From: Chthonomonadia bacterium
Lineage (GTDB): Bacteria; Armatimonadota; HRBIN16
DNA: 33,563 nucleotides
Assembly (NCBI GenBank): GCA_013314755.1
Contig: JABUFA010000037.1
Span: 1 to 33,563 of the forward strand
Reading direction: 5' to 3'
Below, piece by piece: positions 4,183 through 19,497 of the stretch. The position numbers and the translations under genes were made by a program. Numbering within the stretch: position 1 is the stretch's first letter; every line of letters starts with the position of its first letter. The notes beneath the pieces are model-generated. The model saw only the letters and a program-made list of their open reading frames with translations. It searched no databases and had not been told where the DNA came from.

Positions 4183-7100
4183 TTACTTCACCAGCGCCTG
4201 AATCAACTGATAGACTATCGCCCCGGTGGTGATGGAGCGTATCGCTGCGTCAAACTCCGCCTGACGGTCGCGCAACCGCTCCGCCATCACCTTCGTCGGC
4301 ACAAAGATGATGTCGCCAATCTCTACGTTGCGCACCTTGCCCGCCGGCAGTACCTCACCCGTTGCCCGAATGACCAGCACCCTGTCGCGCGCGGCGTCGC
4401 TGGTGTAGCCGCCGGACTGCTCGATGTAGTAGGATACGCGCTTGCCCGGCGAGTATAGCACCGCAGAGGGAACAACCACCGCGCCAGTCACTGCTACCGT
4501 CGTCGGCTTCTCGGGCACGTAGATGATGTCGCCGTCGCGCACCTCGATGTCCGCCTCACTGCCCGGTTTTTGCAGGGCGTTCGCCAAGTCAATGCGCACG
4601 TTGCCAGCCGGCAGGAGGTCCTCCTCTTTCAGGGGGCGTGCCTGCGAAACCAGGTCGCGAGTAAACAGCGTAGCCGCCTGAGCAACTTTCTCTAAGGAAG
4701 CGGACGATTCTGGGGATGCCGGTTGATTCAGCAACGCAGATGGACTGGTCGGGATGGGAGGCTGTGCCAGCCCTGCCGCGAAGCGCACCCGCTCCACGTC
4801 CGACCGCGCCAGCGCACGCCGGTACTCCTCTTCGTTGACTATTCTGAGCACCTGCAGGATGCGCCCCGTCAGCGTCTTTTGCAGGTCGCTGATCACCTGG
4901 TCGGGACGACGCATCAGGCGCGCCGCTCTGGGATAGGCGGTTTCCAGAAGCCCACCTGCACGCTTCACGATGTCGCTCAACCGCTCGACAGGAGCCTGAA
5001 GGGTGTACGGACCGGGTTCCTTCACCGCCCCGCGCAGGTAAACAGTCAGCGGCTTGAGGCGGAAGTCGCCGCGTGCGCGTACCGTGACCACGTCACCGTC
5101 TTCCAGCAGAGGATTGCTGGCTTCTATCCCCTGCAGCGCTTCGTTGAGGCGTACCTCTATCGGGGGAGTGCCTATCGGTTTTCGCGATTTGGCAATCTCC
5201 ACCCGCTCGGCGGCTTCAGGCAGGGGACCACCAGCCAGCCGGATAAGGTCGGCAAGGCGCATGTTCTCGGCACGCGGATATGTGCCCGGCGACTGCACCG
5301 CGCCGTCGATGGTGACCACGTTTTCGGGCGTGAACTGTGCCTGTTCGCGCGTGTAGACCATCAGCATGTCGCGGTCCTGCAGCATGACGTTATGTTCGGG
5401 GTCGTTCAGCATCGCCTTGCGCAGGTCAATTGCCAGCAAGGGACCGTAACTGCCGTCGGGGTTGCGCCGCTGGAGGAAGGCGCGCTCCACGTAAGCATTG
5501 GGCAGAACGCCACCCGCCTGCAGGAGTAAATCCTGTACCCGCATGTTGTCCGCGCGGTAGTAAACGCCCTGTTTTTGCACAGCGCCCCTGACCTGCACGC
5601 GCCGGTCGCCCATCCACTCCACGTCTTTGATCGCGTACACGACAAGCCGGTCGCGCCTTTGCAGGGGGATATTCGCCTGCGGGTCGCGCTGAAGAGCCTT
5701 AGCAAGCTGCACGGGAATCAACGTCTGAGTGTCGTCGGGATTGGTGCGGAACAGGTCGGCGCGGTCGATATAGGCGTCTTCCAGCAAGCCGCGCGCTCTC
5801 TCCACCAGGTCGGCAACAGTCATGCCCTCCATCAGCGCATAACTGCCCGGCTGGTCCACCGCCCCCTCAATGGTGACGATGTTCGCGAAAACGGGACGAA
5901 TGCTGTACACCTCCACCCTGTCGCCATCGTACAGTGGGGGGTTGTTGGCGTCGCTGGCATCCAGCAGGTTAGCATCAATCAGCTGGCGCACCTCGCCGGG
6001 GCGAACCGAAACCACAGACACCCTCTGGGCGACGCCGGAGGGCTTAACGCCTCCAGCAAACCCAATCACATCGCGCAATCGCTCTTCGGGCAGAAGCTCG
6101 TAGATGGCGGGGCGGTGAACCTCGCCCGAGACGCTGACACTCACCTCTACCGGTGGGATGAAAATCACATCGCCGGGCTGTAGAGGCACATCCTGAGAGC
6201 CATCGCCCTGCAGGAGAAAGCGGTAAAAGTCAAAAGTGCGCACCGAACCATCTGCACGCTTGAGCTGAATACGGCGCAGGGAGCCGTTATCACTGGGACC
6301 ACCGCAGGCATACAGGGCGTTGAACAGCGTGGCGACGGCGGGCATCTGGTAGCTGCCGGGAGCGTAAGCCTCGCCGGCGACAATGATGGTCATGGTGCGC
6401 AGTTCGCGCAGGGTCAGTGTCACCTGAACGTCGCGGATAACACGCGACAGCGATTTGCGCACCGTCTCCTCCAGCTGCGCCAGCGTTTGCCCTCTGGCGA
6501 TAATCCTGCCGCCCATAGGCAGGTTCAGCGCGCCCTGCGGGTCAACACGAAGGGTCACCTCGCGCGGCTCCAGCGTTTCGCTCCAGTAGCGCAGGGTCAG
6601 CAGGTCGCCCGGTCCCAGCTGATAGCGTTCAGGCGCAGGCATCAGCACATTCATCCACAGCATGGCGTCGGGACCGACGAAGTTTTTCATCGCGTCGGCA
6701 GGAGGCAGAACGAACGGCGTGTTTGGTGTCGTCGCTGGCTGGAACGGAGCAACAAAGTACGGTGCAAGCGGAACGAACTGCGTTGCTGTCATCGGTTGCT
6801 GCGAACCCGCTGGAGCTGGTGCGATTGCTGTTCCGCCTTGCTGGGGTGTTGCTGGTTGCTGCGCGCCCGCTGAAGCTGGTGCGATTACTGCTCCGCCTTG
6901 CTGGGGTGCCGTTTTGTTCGGGGAGGTCTCTTCCTCGCCGGCGGTTTGTGTCTGTAAAGGCGTTTGGATGGTAGAGGCTAAAGGAACTTGGCTGGATTGC
7001 AGTGTGCCCTGCAATAGCATCTGGAAATAGAGTCGGCGCAGAGCGATAGCCTCCCGTGCCTGTCTGAAATAACTGTAGCCGAACCTTTCCAGAGGAGCCA

Positions 7101-7299
7101 TCGGTCGCGGGCGAGCTTCGGCGGACATCGCTTTAGCGTTGTTGTTGGTCTGGCTCGTAGAATCCCCGTTGTTGACGGCTTGCGGGGCAGAATCTATCCG
7201 GGCAGGTGAAGTTTGCGGTGAGGCGGGCTGTCCGTTTTGTGCAAAGGATAACGCGCCGAGCAGAACCCACAAGCACAGCGAAATCCCGACTTTGCGCAC
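4183..7299 (-). CDS. large polysaccharide-export protein with seven SLBB domains
   Basis: A 1038-aa secreted protein of the polysaccharide biosynthesis/export (Wza-like) superfamily. It likely forms part of the periplasmic or outer-membrane conduit for an extracellular glycan. It has an N-terminal signal peptide (residues 1-21, ending SFAQ). A low-complexity linker carries a 20-residue duplicated unit (PQQGG..IAPA.AG.QQP at 131-170). A Poly_export domain starts near 225 (YQLGPGDLLTLRYW). I then count seven SLBB domains, recognised by recurring xxxGAVxxPGxY starts such as VTIEGAVDQPGSY and VQVRGAVQKQGVY. Wza has only two or three, so this protein is unusually long. The start is GTG 7299; AGGAGGAG lies 8 nt upstream. 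No Wzc kinase or polymerase is nearby, but glycosyltransferases diverge from it. Confidence 0.88.
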   Translation of the reverse strand: MRKVGISLCLWVLLGALSFAQNGQPASPQTSPARIDSAPQAVNNGDSTSQTNNNAKAMSAEARPRPMAPLERFGYSYFRQAREAIALRRLYFQMLLQGTLQSSQVPLASTIQTPLQTQTAGEEETSPNKTAPQQGGAVIAPASAGAQQPATPQQGGTAIAPAPAGSQQPMTATQFVPLAPYFVAPFQPATTPNTPFVLPPADAMKNFVGPDAMLWMNVLMPAPERYQLGPGDLLTLRYWSETLEPREVTLRVDPQGALNLPMGGRIIARGQTLAQLEETVRKSLSRVIRDVQVTLTLRELRTMTIIVAGEAYAPGSYQMPAVATLFNALYACGGPSDNGSLRRIQLKRADGSVRTFDFYRFLLQGDGSQDVPLQPGDVIFIPPVEVSVSVSGEVHRPAIYELLPEERLRDVIGFAGGVKPSGVAQRVSVVSVRPGEVRQLIDANLLDASDANNPPLYDGDRVEVYSIRPVFANIVTIEGAVDQPGSYALMEGMTVADLVERARGLLEDAYIDRADLFRTNPDDTQTLIPVQLAKALQRDPQANIPLQRRDRLVVYAIKDVEWMGDRRVQVRGAVQKQGVYYRADNMRVQDLLLQAGGVLPNAYVERAFLQRRNPDGSYGPLLAIDLRKAMLNDPEHNVMLQDRDMLMVYTREQAQFTPENVVTIDGAVQSPGTYPRAENMRLADLIRLAGGPLPEAAERVEIAKSRKPIGTPPIEVRLNEALQGIEASNPLLEDGDVVTVRARGDFRLKPLTVYLRGAVKEPGPYTLQAPVERLSDIVKRAGGLLETAYPRAARLMRRPDQVISDLQKTLTGRILQVLRIVNEEEYRRALARSDVERVRFAAGLAQPPIPTSPSALLNQPASPESSASLEKVAQAATLFTRDLVSQARPLKEEDLLPAGNVRIDLANALQKPGSEADIEVRDGDIIYVPEKPTTVAVTGAVVVPSAVLYSPGKRVSYYIEQSGGYTSDAARDRVLVIRATGEVLPAGKVRNVEIGDIIFVPTKVMAERLRDRQAEFDAAIRSITTGAIVYQLIQALVK
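6791..6910 (-). repeat. 60-nt tandem duplication inside the export-protein gene
   Basis: Two imperfect 60-nt units encode the 20-residue Q/A/P-rich repeat at residues 131-150 and 151-170 of the SLBB protein. Both read as TGGTGCGATT.CTG.TCCGCC on the plus strand. This is a flexible linker that may vary in copy number between strains. Confidence 0.75.
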
Positions 7300-11629: not shown

Positions 11630-14600
11630 ATGAGCACAGCGGATAACAATCGGGCCGGGCAGACGGCAAGCCCACGCGTTCTGCATATCGTCTGGGAAGG
11701 GGCTTTTCTGGCACGGCATAGCCTTGCGGTGGTGAACAGGGAGCTGGTTTGTGCTCTGCACCACCTGATGCCAGAGTGGGAGTTCTATCTTCTGCCCCAC
11801 GTCACGGATGACGGCGCACTGCGTGGTGAGCCGCGCTGGCGGTTCATTGAAGAGCGGATGCGTCGCCTGCCCCGCCATGTGGACGTGTGGATACGCCACC
11901 ACTGGCCCCCAAGCTGGCAACGCCCTAACGCCGAACGTTTTATCGTGATACAGCCATGGGAGTTCGGCTCTATACCGGTAGAGTGGGTAGACGCTATCAA
12001 CCAGAACGTGGACGAGCTGTGGGTTCCGTCCACCTTTGTGCGTGATTCTTACGTGCGCGACGGCGTGCGAGCAGAGAAGGTATTTGTGGTGCCCAACGGC
12101 GTTTCGGAGGTCTTTTTTGAGGAGGTTCCTCCTCTACAGCTGCCCACCCAGAAGCGGTTTCGCTTCCTGTTTGTGGGAGGCACGATACCACGCAAAGGGA
12201 TTGACATTCTTCTGGACGGCTACACGCGCACCTTCACCCGTGCCGATGACGTCGCGCTGGTAATAAAAGATTTCGGCACCAATACCTTCTATCGCGGGCA
12301 GAACTTTGTGGAGCAGATTCGCTGGTTCCAGAAACAGCCCGAGGTGCCCGAAATCGTCTACATCGGCGAGGAGCTGGACGACCGGCAGATGAACGCGCTG
12401 TATCGCGCCTGCCATGCGCTGGTGCATCCCTATCGCGGCGAGGGGTTCGGACTGCCGATTGCCGAGGCGATGACGTGCGGGCTTCCGGTCATTGTGACCG
12501 GCTTCGGCGCGGCGATGGATTTCTGCAACGCGGAACGCGCCTGGCTGATACCAGCGGAGGTAGAGTACTTCCCCGATAACCTTGTCGGGGAGATGGAGAC
12601 GGTGAACCGCCCCTTCTGGGCGAAGCCTCAGCGCAACGCGATGGAATCACTGATGGAACAGATTTACCGCGACTATCCCTCCGCCAGAGAGCGAGCTGAA
12701 CGGGCAGCACAGTGGGTTCGGGAGAACCTGACCTGGGCGCGGGCGGCGCAAATTGCGGCGGAAAGATTGCTGGCGGCGTCCAGAACCGGTGCACCTACTG
12801 AGGAAGCGGAAAACATTATCCTTCGCGCTGCCGAGCATGTGGCGCAGGAGGATTACGACTCGGCGATTGTCCTGCTGGAGCGGCTGATTCGCGAACAGCC
12901 TCAGCAGCTGAAGGCGTACTGCGGGCTGGGCGTTGCCTTTTTCCAGTCGGGCAGTATCGCCCGGGCAGAAGGCGTGTTGCGGCAGGGCTTACAGCACGGT
13001 GAGGATTTTGAACTGCACTATCATCTGGCGTACATCCTGATGCAAACGGGGCGTTCGGGCGAGGCACTGCGTCATGCAACTCACGCGGTGGAACTGAACC
13101 CCGACTGCGAAGAGGCTGTGGACCTTCTGCGCAAACTGTGTGCGAAACTCCAGAGGCGGTCGTTGAAGCGGGGCAGGCACGCCCTCCAGCAGGACCTGCA
13201 GAAGGCGAATCGTCTACTGCAGAGCACGGGAACGAGCACATCTTCCACCCAGCCAACCGTCCAGCCGGCGGCGTCGCCCTCTCGCAAGAAACATCCCGCT
13301 ATCTCGCTGTGCATGATAGCAAAGGATGAGGAGGTTTTCATTGAGGACTGCCTGAAGAGTGTGCAGGGGCTGGTGGATGAGATTGTGCTGGTGGATACTG
13401 GCTCAACCGACCGCACGGTGGAAATCGCCCGTCGCTATGGGGCGAAGGTGGTGCATCACGCCTGGCGAGATGACTTCTCGGATGCCCGTAACGTCTCGCT
13501 ACAGCACGCTACCGGCGACTGGATACTGTGGCTGGACGCCGACGAACGTCTGGACCGCGGCAGTGCCGAGGCAATCCGCAACGCCATTCAGGACCCTCAG
13601 TTCGCCGGCTATCTGGTGGAGATTCACAACGAGGTCGGCGAGGGACAGAGCACCAGTACCTTTGTGCACCGCGCCTGCCGCCTGTTCCGACGCCTGCCCG
13701 TCACACGCTTTGAGGGGCGCATCCACGAGCAGGTGGTGCCCTCGCTGGAGCGCAACGGCTACGAGGTGGCTTTCCTGAAGGGCGTGCGCATCTTGCACAT
13801 CGGATACCGGCAGGACATCGTTGCCGAGCGCCGCAAGCATGAGCGTACTATCCGCATGTTGCGCGAAGAGGTGCAGAAGAACCCCGATGACCTCTTCCAG
13901 CGGTTCAATCTGGGCAACGCCTACTACGTTGCCGGTCGGTACGCGGAGGCGGTTCAGGAGCTGGAGCCGATTGTTGACCAGATAGAGTCATACGCCGACC
14001 ATGCTTCCATCGGCTACGTTCTGCTGGCGAACGCCCTGTATGCGCTGGGGCGTCATCAGCAGGTGCTGGAGGTGCACGAACGTGCCCGACAGCGAGGCAT
14101 TGACCATCCGGGGCTGGATTTCGCGGACGGTTACGCCTATCTGGCTCTGCGTCGGTACGAGGAGGCGGTGGAGGCGTTTGGCAAGGCGATTCAGGCAGGC
14201 GGGGATGAGCGTTTCTTCGGCGGAGATACCAGCATCAGCGGCTTCAAAGCGTACTACGGGCTGGCGCAGGCGTATCTGGGACTGGAACGTCTGGAGGAGA
14301 GCGAGGCGGAGTGCCGCCGGGCGTTGCAGGAACAGCCAACCTTCGCCGAGGCTCGTTACCTGCTGGCGCAGCTGCTGTTCGCCCGGGGCGAGTTCGCTTC
14401 CGCGCTGAAGGAGCTGGAACAGGCGTATCAGCACGCGCCTCAGAACCCCGAAATCGCGCGCGAACTGGCGATGCGCTATGAGGAGGCAAAACGCTGGACC
14501 GACGCCTATGCGATATGGCGCAGGCTGGTCGGCACCTTCCAGAACAACCCGGAATGGCGCTGGCACAGTGCAACCTGTGCAGAAAGGCTGAATCTGTGGC

Positions 14601-15016
14601 AGGAGGCGCAGGCGGATTATGCAGAGATTACGGTAACCAACCCACACTTTGCGCCGGCGTGGGTTAACCTTGGCAGGGTGCATCTGGCGCAGGGAGATTA
14701 TGAAGGTGCGCTGTCGTGCTTCACCCGCGCCATCGAACTGAACCCTGAAGACGCGAACGCCTTCTTCAACGCAGGCGACGCGCTGTATCGGCTTGGCGCG
14801 TATGAGGCGGCGGCGGAAACCTACACCGCCGGGCTGCAACGTGACCCACAGAACGCACAGGGCTTCTTCACCCTGGGCAACGCCTACTTCCAGATGGGTG
14901 CGTACGACGCCGCCATCATGGCGTATCAGCAGGTACTCGCCCTCCAGCCTGACCATGCGGAGGCGAAGCATAACCTGCAGCTGGCAAAGGAACAGATGCA
15001 ATATCGGGTGGCGTAA
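11630..15016 (+). CDS. GT4 - TPR - GT2 - TPR glycosyltransferase
   Basis: An 1128-aa cytoplasmic multidomain protein. Residues about 1-385 are a GT-B family 4 enzyme (FLFVGGTIPRKGIDILLDGY near 177; GEGFGLPIAEAMTCGLPVIV near 269). Residues about 395-510 are TPR repeats. Residues about 555-755 are a GT2 domain (ISLCMIAKDEEVFIEDCL, VDTGSTDRTVEIARRYGAKV, WLDADER at about 635). From about 758 to the end come further TPR repeats, with typical A/G/Y/A spacing such as AWVNLGRVHLAQGDYEGAL. TPR-coupled GT2 enzymes are known from protein and peptide glycosylation and from surface glycan loci, where the TPRs hold a partner or acceptor. The ribosome site GGAAGGAGG precedes ATG 11630. Its GT2 module resembles that of the preceding gene, with the GT2/GT4 order inverted. 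Confidence 0.88.
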   Translation: MSTADNNRAGQTASPRVLHIVWEGAFLARHSLAVVNRELVCALHHLMPEWEFYLLPHVTDDGALRGEPRWRFIEERMRRLPRHVDVWIRHHWPPSWQRPNAERFIVIQPWEFGSIPVEWVDAINQNVDELWVPSTFVRDSYVRDGVRAEKVFVVPNGVSEVFFEEVPPLQLPTQKRFRFLFVGGTIPRKGIDILLDGYTRTFTRADDVALVIKDFGTNTFYRGQNFVEQIRWFQKQPEVPEIVYIGEELDDRQMNALYRACHALVHPYRGEGFGLPIAEAMTCGLPVIVTGFGAAMDFCNAERAWLIPAEVEYFPDNLVGEMETVNRPFWAKPQRNAMESLMEQIYRDYPSARERAERAAQWVRENLTWARAAQIAAERLLAASRTGAPTEEAENIILRAAEHVAQEDYDSAIVLLERLIREQPQQLKAYCGLGVAFFQSGSIARAEGVLRQGLQHGEDFELHYHLAYILMQTGRSGEALRHATHAVELNPDCEEAVDLLRKLCAKLQRRSLKRGRHALQQDLQKANRLLQSTGTSTSSTQPTVQPAASPSRKKHPAISLCMIAKDEEVFIEDCLKSVQGLVDEIVLVDTGSTDRTVEIARRYGAKVVHHAWRDDFSDARNVSLQHATGDWILWLDADERLDRGSAEAIRNAIQDPQFAGYLVEIHNEVGEGQSTSTFVHRACRLFRRLPVTRFEGRIHEQVVPSLERNGYEVAFLKGVRILHIGYRQDIVAERRKHERTIRMLREEVQKNPDDLFQRFNLGNAYYVAGRYAEAVQELEPIVDQIESYADHASIGYVLLANALYALGRHQQVLEVHERARQRGIDHPGLDFADGYAYLALRRYEEAVEAFGKAIQAGGDERFFGGDTSISGFKAYYGLAQAYLGLERLEESEAECRRALQEQPTFAEARYLLAQLLFARGEFASALKELEQAYQHAPQNPEIARELAMRYEEAKRWTDAYAIWRRLVGTFQNNPEWRWHSATCAERLNLWQEAQADYAEITVTNPHFAPAWVNLGRVHLAQGDYEGALSCFTRAIELNPEDANAFFNAGDALYRLGAYEAAAETYTAGLQRDPQNAQGFFTLGNAYFQMGAYDAAIMAYQQVLALQPDHAEAKHNLQLAKEQMQYRVA

Positions 15017-15034: not shown

Positions 15035-15535
15035 TGTCCTTGCGATTGGAAATCGCAGGTATGGAGTGCTGAAGCCATGCTTCAGCATTCCAGAGTAGCC
15101 CGCAACCTCCTGTTGCAGGGTTGCCCTCCCTCCTTTTCTCTGCCCTTGCGATTGGAAATCGCAGGCAACACAGGACAAAACCTGCCAAAGCAGGTTCATA
15201 TGGAGTGCTGAAGCCATGCTTCAGCAAACTCAGCATCCGAAGGAGGCTTCGTCATGAGTAGCCCGCAACTTCCAGTTGCAGGGGTGTTTTTACGGCAACC
15301 TTGCGATTGGAAATCGCAGGCAACACAGGACAAAACCTGCCCAAGCAGGTTAGTATGGGTTGCTGAAGCAAGCTTCAGCACTCCAAAAAGGTCAGCCTAC
15401 CTTTTTATCCTGCCCTTGCAATTAGAAATCGCAGGCTACTCAGGACGAGACCTGCTGGCGCAGGTTCGTGGTTGCTGAAGCAAGCTTCAGCACTCCAAAG
15501 CAGAATGCCTTGCTGAAGCAAGCTTCAGCACTCCA
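15035..15535. repeat. mosaic of four short palindrome families in repeated order
   Basis: This 500-nt stretch holds no gene. It contains 14 short hairpins of four kinds. Family A (TGCGATTGGAAATCGCA) is at 15041, 15147, 15302 and, mutated, 15417. Family B (AACCTGC-loop-GCAGGTT) is at 15179, 15334 and 15449. Family C (TGCTGAAG..CTTCAGCA) is at 15067, 15206, 15361, 15473 and 15511. Family D (GCAAC..GTTGC after AGTAGCCC) is at 15093 and 15258. The order is A-C-D, A-B-C-D, A-B-C, A-B-C, C. It lies between two genes read in the same direction. It is not CRISPR-like: unit length varies, there are no unique spacers of constant length and no cas genes. I see no transposase. Confidence 0.85.
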
Positions 15536-15594: not shown

Positions 15595-16680
15595 ATGAGC
15601 CGTTCTCTTAGCGTTTTGAGCGATTCCATCTGTGCCTGTGCACGCTCGCTGGGGTTTGACCTGGTGGGTATCGCGCCGGTGCTTCCCCCCGCACATGCCC
15701 TCTTCTTCCGCTGGTGGTTAGAGCAGGGCTTCGCCGGCGAAATGCACTATCTGCTTCGTACCGTCGACAAACGGTGTGACCCTCAGCTGATGCTTCCGGG
15801 CGCAAAGAGCGCGGTGGTGGTAGGGCTGAACTATGCCCCCGCTGTTTCGCCTGTCACCGACGACCCGACCCGCGCCGTCTTCGCTCGTTATGCGCTGGGC
15901 GAGGACTACCATGAGGTCGTAACTTGTAAACTGCAGGAGCTGCTGGAGTTCATTCGCCAGCGGGTGGGCGAATGTCAGGCTAAAATAGGAGTGGATGCCG
16001 CGCCCGTGCTGGAACGCGACCTGGCATGGCGAGCAGGGCTCGGCTGGTTCGGCAAGAACACGATGCTGATCAATACGCGGCTTGGTTCGTACTTCTTCAT
16101 TGGCGAGATTCTGCTGGACATAGAGCTGGAGTACGACCAGCCTGCGTTCGGTGGGTGCGGCACCTGCACGCGGTGCATCGAGGCGTGCCCAACAGGGGCA
16201 ATTGTCGCGCCGTATGTGCTGGACGCAAGCCGATGCATCAGCTACCTGACCATTGAACTCAAAGGCTCCATTCCCGAGTGTCTGCGTTCGCTCATGGGCA
16301 ATCGCGTGTTCGGGTGTGACATCTGTCAGGAGGTTTGTCCGTTCAATCAGCCGCGTGCCCATGCGCCTTTGCGTGCCTCGCCCACTCGAGAGCCGGCGTT
16401 TGCTCCGCGTGAAATCACCCTTGCGCCGCGACTGGTGGACCTGTTGAGGATGCGCGAGGAGCAGTTCCGGGAGGCGTTCCGCAAGAGCGCAGTGAAGCGC
16501 ACCAAGTGGCGAGGCTTGCGGCGCAACGTGGCGGTGGCATTGGGCAACAGCGGCGACCCCTTTGCGCTCCCCGTGCTGAAGGAGGAAGCCGCCGCCGAAA
16601 CCGACCCCGTCGTGCGCGAGCATCTGCAGTGGGCGATAGAACAATACGCTACTCGTCACCCGTCTTCCCGAAGTTCCTGA
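15595..16680 (+). CDS. queG: epoxyqueuosine reductase
   Basis: A 361-aa cytoplasmic iron-sulfur and cobalamin enzyme that reduces epoxyqueuosine to queuosine in tRNA, the last step of queuosine biosynthesis. The family signature is clear. GVDAAPVLERDLAWRAGLGW and FGKNTMLINTRLGSYFFIGE form the cobalamin-binding catalytic domain. Two [4Fe-4S] motifs follow: C188-x2-C191-x2-C194-x3-C198-P, and C241-x2-C244-x3-C248-P. The C-terminal end (about 300-355: VAVALGNSGDPFALPVL...VREHLQWAIEQY) is HEAT-like, as in other QueG proteins. The start ATG 15595 has only a weak AAGG upstream. The 3' end overlaps the convergent PA14 gene by 32 bp. No other queuosine genes are in the window. Confidence 0.95.
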   Translation: MSRSLSVLSDSICACARSLGFDLVGIAPVLPPAHALFFRWWLEQGFAGEMHYLLRTVDKRCDPQLMLPGAKSAVVVGLNYAPAVSPVTDDPTRAVFARYALGEDYHEVVTCKLQELLEFIRQRVGECQAKIGVDAAPVLERDLAWRAGLGWFGKNTMLINTRLGSYFFIGEILLDIELEYDQPAFGGCGTCTRCIEACPTGAIVAPYVLDASRCISYLTIELKGSIPECLRSLMGNRVFGCDICQEVCPFNQPRAHAPLRASPTREPAFAPREITLAPRLVDLLRMREEQFREAFRKSAVKRTKWRGLRRNVAVALGNSGDPFALPVLKEEAAAETDPVVREHLQWAIEQYATRHPSSRSS

Positions 16681-19360
16681 CCAGTATCCCGAAGTCGAAG
16701 AGGGTGACCTCTTCATCGCCGTCCAGGTCGGCGTTCGGGTTCCAGTTCGGGTCGCCGGGCATACTGCCGAACGCGGCAACCAGCTGCCCGAAGTCAAACA
16801 GCGTCACCTCGTTGTCGCCGTCGATATCGCCGCTGGCAAGTTCAAAACGCAGGGGAGCGGTTAGAGGAAACCGCACATTGCGAAGCGTCTGTCGCAACCA
16901 GCGAGAGCCTTTCAGACTCACGTCGTACACGCCTGCGGGGATAGATACCGGGATGCGGAAACGTGCCTGCTCGTCCAGCACCACGTCAAAGGCGGTGTTG
17001 CCCACCTGCATCTGCAGTACAAGGCTTTTCGGCGATACTGCCCATCCGTCCAGCACCACCTCGCCATCGTACAGCAGGCTGAGCAGTTGCCAGTTCAGGC
17101 GGGCGGTGGCGATGTCGCTCTCCTCGAAATACTCTACCACAATGCGGTGAGTGCCTGCGTCCAGTCTACGCTCAAAGGTATAGGTAGTTTCAGGCTGGGA
17201 GAACCACTTATCCAGCACATTCACACCATCTACCCAGATGCGCATCCCGTCACTGGTGGTTGCGGTGAAGCGATAGTTGCCCGGCGCGAAATACCAGTCG
17301 CCCGTCCAACGCACACTGAAACCATCACCGGGGAGGGCAGGGTCGGGTGAGCCGTAGCCGTAGGCATAGTCAATGGCTGTCTCCAGTCGGCTGGTCAGGT
17401 AGCCCTGCAGGTCTCTGGTGGTGTAGTAGTCCGCCCGCCACCCGTTCAGCGGCACCTCGGCGGGAGGCGGCTCGTCCGTCCAGCTGACCTGCACCCGTGC
17501 GGTTCCGGTGTAGTGGCGATAGCGCACCTGAACGCGATGATACTCTCCCTGTGGCGTGGACTGCCCGGGCACCACAAAGGGGGCATCGCGCGAGGTGTAA
17601 ATCACCGGCGTCCATGTTTGCAGTTGCGTGTTATCCCATGCGTCGAAAACCAGCCGGTCGTCGATAATGATCTGTATCCCTCCGTCCGCGGTAATGGTGA
17701 ACTTCTTCCATCCCTCGGTGAAGCGGATATTGCCCAGCCAGTACACGCTGAAGTTATCGGGGTCAACGCCGGAGATGGGCGAGCCGGTCCAGGTGAAGTT
17801 GATGGCGCTGTCCGTGCGGTAGCGTATGAAGGTCTGGAAGTTATTGCCGTTGAAGTAGTTGCCTCTCCAGCGGTCGCGAGGCACGGTGACCGGGTTATCG
17901 CGCAGGTCTATCTGGCGCACGTAATAGCCGTGTGTGAACAGCTGTCCGGGCGGCGCCATCCAGCGTTGCAGGTTGAAGTCGGTAATCTCCTGGAACAGGA
18001 AATAGAGCTGACCGCGATAGCGCAGTTTGAGTATCAGCACTCCCCGATTGACGCTGGGATAGCCGAACGGGTTGCTTCCCAGGTGGATCATGCCGTTTTC
18101 ATCGGTAACAACGCTCATGTCGGGGATGTTATCGTAAGATTTGCCGTATATGCCCGGATACCAGCCCGCCTGATAGATGTCCACCTGCGCCCCGACAATT
18201 GGCACACCGTTCTGGTCAATAAACTGGATGTGATTGGCATCGGGCAGGTCGTTCAGGAACACGCCGATGTCCGGTGGGGCGTTCATGTTGCCTCGTCCGC
18301 GTTTGTGGTGTTTCCAGTTCCATACCGCCGCGCTGTAGGCGTCGTAGAAGGGCGACCCTGCGCCCATGATGTCGCGCCATTTGTTGTAGTAGACGCCTGC
18401 CCATGCGATGTAGGGCATGTAATCTGTGCCTGCGACCAGATTGCCGTAGTCGTCGGTAATCTGGATGGGTAGCGGATAGCCCGAGTAGGCGGACTGGTGA
18501 ACATCCAGACCGTACAGGTCAATATGATAGCGTGCGTGGTTCATTTCATGGATACTGCCAAAGTCAATGAAGAAGGGACCATTCCAGCGGAAGCCATAGA
18601 AGCCGTCGGGCTGAATGTCCTCCGGGCGGTAGGGATAGCCCCACTGCATGTCCACTGTACGGTCTCGCGCGTCGGGGTTGTTGGTGGGCAGACCACCAGC
18701 CAGGGGCAGTGCACCGTCGGGGACAACCACCACCTTATCCAGAGCCACTCTGTCCAGCGCGCCATTTGGCGAGAACGGAGTGACGGCTTTCGCCAGCCAT
18801 TCGTTCCAGCGGCGTATCATGCGCTGTGCCCAGTCCTCAAAACTGTTGGAGCCGTCGTTGAGCAGATACTGATTGTTGTGGAAGTAGTTGTACAGGCTCT
18901 GTTCCACCCACAGACCGACAAGCAGGGCGTTTGTGCGGATGCTGACGCGGTTGTTCAGTTTGGAGATTTCGTAGAGTGTGCCCGCGGGGTCAGCGCGGAA
19001 CTCCAGCGTGTGGTCGGCGTTTTCCCAGAACCAGTAGAAGGGTATCTGCACCGTCTGTCCGGGTAGAATGGTGATCACTCCCGTGCCTGCCTGCCCACCG
19101 TCGAACCACCACTCGTAAGGAACGGTAACTGCCTCGGTACCCCAGTTTTTGACGTGGGCAAGGTAGGTAACCTGCTGTCCGGGCGCGGGCAGTCCGCTGG
19201 AGTAGCTGAGATCATTGGGGTCAAACGCGAGGCGCGGGGTGCGTTCGATATAGAGCACATCCACATCGGGCAGGAAGTTGGTGATGGGCGCCTGGGCGCG
19301 TGAAGCTCCAGCAAGACCGAGACACAGTACTGCGGCGATAGCGATTCTCAACTGTTTCAT
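16649..19360 (-). CDS. secreted metzincin-like protein with CARDB, two PA14 domains and a dockerin-like tail
   Basis: A 903-aa exported protein. The signal peptide is MKQLRIAIAAVLCLGLAGASRAQA. I chose ATG 19360 over upstream in-frame codons because it gives this signal peptide, and GAGGAGGGG precedes it. In order: a CARDB-like adhesion domain (about 30-150); a region with HEMNHARYHID (271-281), which fits a zinc HExxHxxxxxD pattern and is followed by an IMG that could be a Met-turn; two PA14 domains (about 490-625 and 635-770; GWKKFTITADGGIQIIIDDRL and PGNYRFTATTSDGMRIWVDG), which bind carbohydrates; a small beta domain; and two dockerin-like calcium loops (about 841-903). It is probably a surface protease or glycan-binding protein. 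The glycine usual in metzincin motifs is replaced by Y278, so activity is uncertain. Confidence 0.85.
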   Translation of the reverse strand: MKQLRIAIAAVLCLGLAGASRAQAPITNFLPDVDVLYIERTPRLAFDPNDLSYSSGLPAPGQQVTYLAHVKNWGTEAVTVPYEWWFDGGQAGTGVITILPGQTVQIPFYWFWENADHTLEFRADPAGTLYEISKLNNRVSIRTNALLVGLWVEQSLYNYFHNNQYLLNDGSNSFEDWAQRMIRRWNEWLAKAVTPFSPNGALDRVALDKVVVVPDGALPLAGGLPTNNPDARDRTVDMQWGYPYRPEDIQPDGFYGFRWNGPFFIDFGSIHEMNHARYHIDLYGLDVHQSAYSGYPLPIQITDDYGNLVAGTDYMPYIAWAGVYYNKWRDIMGAGSPFYDAYSAAVWNWKHHKRGRGNMNAPPDIGVFLNDLPDANHIQFIDQNGVPIVGAQVDIYQAGWYPGIYGKSYDNIPDMSVVTDENGMIHLGSNPFGYPSVNRGVLILKLRYRGQLYFLFQEITDFNLQRWMAPPGQLFTHGYYVRQIDLRDNPVTVPRDRWRGNYFNGNNFQTFIRYRTDSAINFTWTGSPISGVDPDNFSVYWLGNIRFTEGWKKFTITADGGIQIIIDDRLVFDAWDNTQLQTWTPVIYTSRDAPFVVPGQSTPQGEYHRVQVRYRHYTGTARVQVSWTDEPPPAEVPLNGWRADYYTTRDLQGYLTSRLETAIDYAYGYGSPDPALPGDGFSVRWTGDWYFAPGNYRFTATTSDGMRIWVDGVNVLDKWFSQPETTYTFERRLDAGTHRIVVEYFEESDIATARLNWQLLSLLYDGEVVLDGWAVSPKSLVLQMQVGNTAFDVVLDEQARFRIPVSIPAGVYDVSLKGSRWLRQTLRNVRFPLTAPLRFELASGDIDGDNEVTLFDFGQLVAAFGSMPGDPNWNPNADLDGDEEVTLFDFGILVRNFGKTGDE
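16707..16832 (-). repeat. dockerin-like cassette, copy 1
   Basis: This 126-nt segment encodes two calcium-loop motifs, DIDGDNEVTLFDFG and ADLDGDEEV. I count four nucleotide differences from 19556-19681 in the next gene, although the rest of the two genes is much less alike. This suggests recent duplication or gene conversion of the tail module. Confidence 0.85.
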
Positions 19361-19388
19361 GGCTGCGCTCCCCTCCTCATATCGCCTC

Positions 19389-19417
19389 ATTGTAACACGG
19401 TATTCACCTTCATGCAA
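19389..19417 (-). promoter_or_regulatory. promoter of the PA14/metzincin-like gene
   Basis: On the minus strand, TTGCAT (19417-19412) and TACAAT (19394-19389) are spaced 17 bp, just upstream of the ribosome binding site of the PA14 gene. It lies downstream of a strong hairpin, which supports independent transcription from the preceding gene. Confidence 0.6.
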
Positions 19418-19439
19418 GGTGGATTGCACAGGGCGATTC

Positions 19440-19466
19440 AGGCAGGAGGGGTATTCCCTCCTGCCT
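19440..19466 (-). terminator. hairpin between the two dockerin-tailed genes
   Basis: An 11-bp perfect stem, AGGCAGGAGGG (19440-19450) with CCCTCCTGCCT (19456-19466), has loop GTATT. It lies about 30 nt past the stop of the upstream minus-strand gene. No T-run follows on the minus strand, so it may be a transcript-end stabiliser or a weak terminator. Confidence 0.5.
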
Positions 19467-19497
19467 CGCATTCTGGAAGAGGGGAGGGTATCAAAGG

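Follow-up and report, generated by a model that had tools for sequence, protein, structure and literature searches.

Between a gene for a glycosyltransferase/TPR protein and queG, the stretch of Chthonomonadia bacterium DNA analysed here (33,563 nucleotides, hereafter the window) carries a dense array of palindromes, which raises the question of what the array is and how it came to be there. A preliminary description had counted fourteen hairpins of four palindrome families, A to D, within 500 nt, some of them decayed, and had suggested a composite of non-autonomous mobile elements, recombination targets or a regulatory 3' UTR. It also asked whether the motifs are abundant in the genome, whether their order is fixed and whether a REP-type transposase (RAYT) is present. 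On the best reading of the results, the array belongs to a known class of bacterial mobile repeats, of which it is a new case with unusual layering, and does not represent a regulatory element.

Structure and dispersal of the array

All fourteen hairpins were found where they had been placed, together with a fifteenth, d (15232-15248), that was absent from the initial list. The 15 hairpins extend over 15038-15534 in the order A-B-C, A-D-B-d-C, A-D-B, A-D-B and B, i.e., four A, five B, two C, three D and d. The decayed members were represented by a decayed A copy, TGCAATTAGAAATCGCA, located at 15417-15433. The array starts about 20 nt past the upstream stop codon and was not reported by Tandem Repeats Finder. 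Its parts and flanking features are as follows (window positions, with the strand where it was assigned).

11630-15016, plus: upstream gene, glycosyltransferase/TPR protein
15038-15059, minus: A1, REP-like hairpin CCTTGCGATTGGAAATCGCAGG; CTAC tag lost, with TATGGAG next instead
15063-15087, plus: B1, GGAG-tagged hairpin, CAT loop, forward
15095-15120, plus: C1, GTAG tag and hairpin CCCGCAACCTCCTGTTGCAGGG, the A family inverted
15121-15143: long pyrimidine-rich linker, type L
15144-15165, minus: A2 hairpin; tag CAAC (minus strand GTTG) at 15166-15169
15179-15196: D2 hairpin AACCTGCCAAAGCAGGTT
15202-15226, plus: B2, GGAG-tagged, CAT loop, inside the D-d junction
15232-15253, plus: d2 hairpin AGCATCCGAAGGAGGCT, then T-CGTC
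15258-15283, plus: C2, GTAG tag and hairpin CCCGCAACTTCCAGTTGCAGGG
15284-15298: short linker, type S, GTGTTTTTACGGCAA
15299-15320, minus: A3 hairpin; tag CAAC at 15321-15324
15334-15351: D3 hairpin AACCTGCCCAAGCAGGTT
15361-15384, minus: B3, AA-loop hairpin, tag CTCC (minus strand GGAG)
15202-15384: REPIN-like unit B>-d-C-S-A-D-<B, GGAG tags pointing out
15385-15413: probable remnant of a d-C half (AAAAAGGTCAGCCTACCTTTTT) with an L-type linker, judged from the sequence
15414-15435, minus: A4, decayed copy CCTTGCAATTAGAAATCGCAGG; tag CTAC at 15436-15439
15449-15466: D4 hairpin GACCTGCTGGCGCAGGTT
15473-15496, minus: B4 hairpin, AA loop
15511-15534, minus: B5 hairpin, AA loop
15557-15562, plus: TATAAT, common to relatives, immediately 3' of the array
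15595-16680, plus: downstream gene, epoxyqueuosine reductase QueG (TIGR00276)

Elsewhere in the window, a tandem repeat of 60-bp period (1.9 copies, 90% match) lies at 6794-6908 within the coding frame 4183-7299 (minus strand), and the 940-aa product of 16649-19471 (minus strand) has PA14 domains as well as segments that resemble CARDB and dockerin at sub-threshold scores.

The four motifs were recovered, but not as four independent families, a view ruled out by the finding that C is an inverted A. Indeed, A (CCTTGCGATTGGAAATCGCAGG-CTAC/CAAC) and C (GTAG-CCCGCAACTTCCAGTTGCAGGG) belong to one family in opposite orientations, with compensated stem changes, and D recurs as the paralogous d. The D (AACCTGC..GCAGGTT) and d (AGCCTCC..GGAGGCT-TCGTC) hairpins form a second inverted pair nested within the A/C pair; their geometry, with an AT-ended stem and a tags-outwards dimer, would fit a CGTC REP, but their tag is degenerate (TCGTC, TTGTC, TTGCC or TCGCC). 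The third, independent family, B (GGAG-TGCTGAAGC..GCTTCAGCA), lacks the canonical GT[AG]G 5'-foot tag, for which it has GGAG or GGAC. A strict count, which replaced a wide-tolerance fuzzy scan that was too noisy, gave 202 A/C hairpins in the genome, 121 tagged GTAG and 43 GTTG; as expected of GTAG REPs, they are short, tagged, intergenic and present in many copies. Profiled across all copies, the repeat is almost perfectly dyad-symmetric over about 190 nt, and each local hairpin displays pair-preserving changes on both sides (covariation). A single long A-C stem (T-shaped fold) obtained similar bulk scores but many G-U pairs; local hairpins are hence preferred, although not decisively.

Then, the genome (3.95 Mb in 88 contigs) was surveyed by pattern and BLAST searches and from fetched stretches. 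The motifs proved abundant, with 72 exact B palindromes and 49 + 38 A sites (87 A-like), against zero matches for the controls in both cases (reversed patterns for B), while BLAST with the array returned 116 matches at E <= 1e-3. Hairpin tokenising covered 81 merged stretches (251 kb); no token with <= 2 edits was obtained from 61 kb of shuffled sequence. The order was fixed as well: in 84 arrays comprising 596 tokens, 421 of the 512 adjacent hairpin pairs fit one grammar, whereas 2000 shuffles within arrays gave 285 on average and never more than 319, a result to be read as a measure of consistency and no independent prediction since the grammar was derived from those same arrays. Of 181 cases, 165 had D or d on the side of A/C that bears the tag. 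Arrays of this kind occupy about 80 intergenic loci (78 of 79 arrays were intergenic according to a heuristic gene caller) and show in tandem the alternating REP orientation and alternating linkers that characterize BIMEs. Two contigs start within near-identical arrays (C52:1-130 and C80:1-190). Arrays at contig starts indicate that they probably break the assembly, and the counts given here are therefore lower bounds.

The B-less element and the composite

A 107-nt A-D-d-C element without B was found in relatives within the genus and among the copies in this genome. With scoring limited to 150 candidates, a covariance model recovered full-length, sharp-ended A-D-d-C in this genome (G000), G001, G003 and G005; it also matched in G002 and G006-G009, but not in G004. 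Matches were listed on both strands and thus amount to about twice the number of elements. A search of 40 relatives with the A pattern, allowing one mismatch, gave zero matches. This was misleading, as BLAST and the covariance model recovered diverged copies, ruling out A as a species-only repeat. B-less elements also occur as a tandem pair separated by a short linker, at C25:8932-9161 of this genome.

Comparison of elements with and without B places B in the D-d junction. In this genome, the junction measures 0-3 nt in eleven copies that lack B and, in most cases, about 31-45 nt when B is present. B can face either way there: most copies are tag-reversed with an AA loop, and fewer are tag-forward with a CAT loop. 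Around the short S linker, B>(CAT) mostly lies on the left and <B(AA) on the right, tags outwards; around the long pyrimidine-rich L linker, the arrangement is mostly the reverse, <B then B>. Eighteen such units with B at both ends, counting both kinds, were retrieved. One composite of 191 nt stands alone in unique DNA (C73:26189-26379), and the B-bounded units at C80:46751 and C70:14254 have one unique flank each. The insertion of RAYT-type hairpins into an older element is well supported.

A rival account would have A-D-d-C spread as the core of a classical MITE by a DDE-type transposase, B and the tandems arising by slippage and recombination with no RAYT involved. It draws on the ~185-nt elements of G003 and G005, in which the 107-nt core lies between the terminal inverted repeats TAGTACTyTGTCAA...TTGACAGAGTACTA (e.g., L258-L294), and on the tandem composites with their regular linkers. 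However, only the G003 and G005 copies possess the terminal inverted repeats expected of a MITE, and these outer repeats were not seen in the G000 copies examined. Exact matches to the repeat were few, the aligned flanks of the ~185-nt elements showed no clear target-site duplication, and no transposase of this element was found. Those G003 and G005 copies that have common flanks (L268/L286 and L277/L287) probably predate the split between the two genomes. That B occupies a single exact junction either way round, that a B-bounded unit stands in unique DNA and that B matches hairpins beside RAYTs in its own and other phyla all argue against this account, which we consider unlikely.

The array is instead likely a BIME-like, layered tandem, in which REPs of the RAYT type entered an older MITE-like repeat, after which the two spread together. 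The first layer would be the genus-wide 107-nt A-D-d-C, a GTAG/GTTG hairpin pair with inward tags around the inverted D/d pair, tandemly repeated via two alternating linkers. As a second layer, the GGAG-tagged REP B would have inserted into the D-d junction in either orientation. The resulting B>-d-C-linker-A-D-<B units, whose GGAG tags point outwards as in a REPIN, would then have spread to about 80 intergenic sites. A REPIN consists of two inverted REPs with their tags outwards, dispersed in a genome that has a RAYT. Here, the RAYT, or a close predecessor, would cut and transfer both B and the composite in single-stranded form. The many arrays that end in A or C, not B, speak against this reading.

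The RAYT and its flanking hairpins

The REP-type transposase sought since the preliminary description is present as a single protein of 183 aa (C57:70219-70767, minus strand), which scored 104.6 bits against NCBIfam NF047646 (cut-off 80), carries the motifs NHYH and YVHYNP and matches E. coli TnpAREP 4ER8 (E 1.8e-6). A PF01797 search of the genome retrieved it only below threshold, its score against Pfam Y1_Tnp (21.4) being slightly below the cut-off of 23, and no second RAYT was found in the genome. From their translations, the neighbouring genes look like uvrC and dapB. Inverted REPs flank the RAYT, six hairpins on one side and four on the other (TGCGGAAGC..GCTTCCGCA), with GGAC/GGAG tags, a CAT loop in forward copies and an AA loop in reverse ones, and a spacing of about 26 nt. 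A single compensated base pair (GCGGAAGC vs GCTGAAGC) sets them apart from the dispersed B, and they have the same CAT/AA loop pairing; 10 of the 12 genome copies of the GCGGAAGC variant are at the RAYT, on both sides. Hence, B is of the hairpin type of this RAYT without being identical to its own set, and may derive from a lost sister RAYT. We infer that the present RAYT would mobilise B and the composite. This RAYT, the only one of the genome, has B-type flanking hairpins alone, and, as a point against this reading, no RAYT or other transposase belonging to A/C or D/d was found here.

The same association extends to related transposases. A related Ignavibacteriales RAYT (L096) is flanked by a B hairpin, GCTGAAGC-TC-GCTTCAGC, with a GGAGT tag. 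Of the 43 RAYTs at >= 44% identity, 39 have hairpins with a GGA[GC]T tag no more than 600 nt away, compared with 8 of 43 for far flanks on the same contigs; among more distant RAYTs, GGA[GC]T was found in 2 of 26 and GT[AG]G in 12 of 26. In a quick tree, for which SH-aLRT 95 is the sole support value, the GGA[GC]T RAYTs form one group of 34 from about ten phyla, none with GT[AG]G, and the RAYT of this genome groups with that of Chloroflexus islandicus (62-64% identity). This distribution fits a horizontal spread of the clade, although many of the sources are MAGs. A different RAYT, 38% identical, occurs in G005 (L204/L087) with flanking hairpins of its own, GCACGCTAAAGCGTGC and GCAGGCTTTAGCCTGC, and GTAGT nearby. 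Most TnpAREP subclasses are reported to have GT[AG]G feet, and subclasses 2.6 and 3 atypical ones (PMC6006769). The GGA[GC]T-tagged clade (L090-L133), whose tag is other than GT[AG]G, is apparently not described in the literature examined: the available parts of PMC6006769, PMC2817692, PMC3733652 and PMC8266576 do not contain the string GGAG, and a text search of the RAYT/REP literature found no GGAGT-tagged RAYT REPs, which is no proof of their absence. A more far-reaching proposal, which we put forward tentatively and regard as less probable than its opposite, is that a GGAG-guided lineage of RAYTs, having passed horizontally between some ten phyla, prefers the hairpin junction of the older repeat as its target and then mobilises the whole composite as a cargo-carrying REPIN.

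Neighbouring genes and known repeat systems

The position of the array, about 20 nt after a stop codon, and its strong, covarying local hairpins could also suggest a regulatory or transcript-stabilising structure (3' UTR or terminator) selected at each site. As a general explanation, the regulatory 3' UTR put forward earlier was not supported. Arrays occupy gaps of all types (divergent 27, tandem 34 and convergent 7, raw counts by the heuristic caller), no terminator-like site was found at the locus, and no Rfam family exceeded its gathering score, all matches being sub-threshold (rsmX, 27.3 vs 56 bits) and judged to be chance. Moreover, G001 and G007 keep the gene pair, its order and the TATAAT without the array, with about 28 nt from the TPR stop codon to the TATAAT compared with 540 nt in the window; the array was therefore either gained in the window genome or lost in both relatives. 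Selection for regulation at each site thus appears very improbable, although the array, which now ends just before the queG TATAAT, may affect that gene. A site-specific recombination array, integron-like or of the phage attachment type, is scarcely credible despite the tandem hairpin-bearing repeats and their conserved order, since no gene cassettes lie between the units and the arrays are dispersed over about 80 sites instead of one platform. In contrast, the initial suggestion of a composite of non-autonomous mobile elements is well supported by dispersal in fixed order, by the single RAYT and by the two relatives without the array.

The formation and movement of REPs and BIMEs are still debated. 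With its series from the B-less element and the B-less tandem to the composite, the standalone composite and the array-free locus, the genus allows the order of events to be put to the test. It also points to a RAYT clade whose guide differs from GT[AG]G and which lends itself to testing whether cleavage sites are chosen by the tetranucleotide, as one model has it; A3G4, which GGAG retains, is proposed to select CT (PMC8266576).

Several known systems resemble individual parts of the array. A and C carry GTAG or GTTG like the GTAG-tagged repeats, and D and d resemble the CGTC-tagged repeats in their AT-ended stems, CGTC/TGTC-like tags and tags-outwards dimer (Di Nocera 2013, PMC3733652); the nesting of a CGTC-like dimer in a GTAG dimer, seen here, is not described in the available part of that study. 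With NHYH and YVHYNP, the RAYT resembles TnpAREP subclass 2.8 (NHYH, YIHYNP; PMC6006769), for which GT[AG]G feet are reported, whereas its own clade has GGA[GC]T. The B>(CAT)...<B(AA) arrangement, as in the pairs beside the RAYT, is that of REPINs (Bertels and Rainey 2011, PMC3116915), but here some 115 nt of a different repeat (d-C-S-A-D) lie between the two B hairpins, whose tag is GGAG, not GT[AG]G. Finally, hybrid BIMEs with REPs of two RAYTs have been described in Stenotrophomonas (Nunvar 2010, PMC2817692). Like these and the BIME-2 of E. coli, the array combines alternating REPs, inter-REP linkers, tandem organization, an intergenic location and compensated hairpins; unlike them, it is built from two nested hairpin pairs with a central third hairpin of another class.
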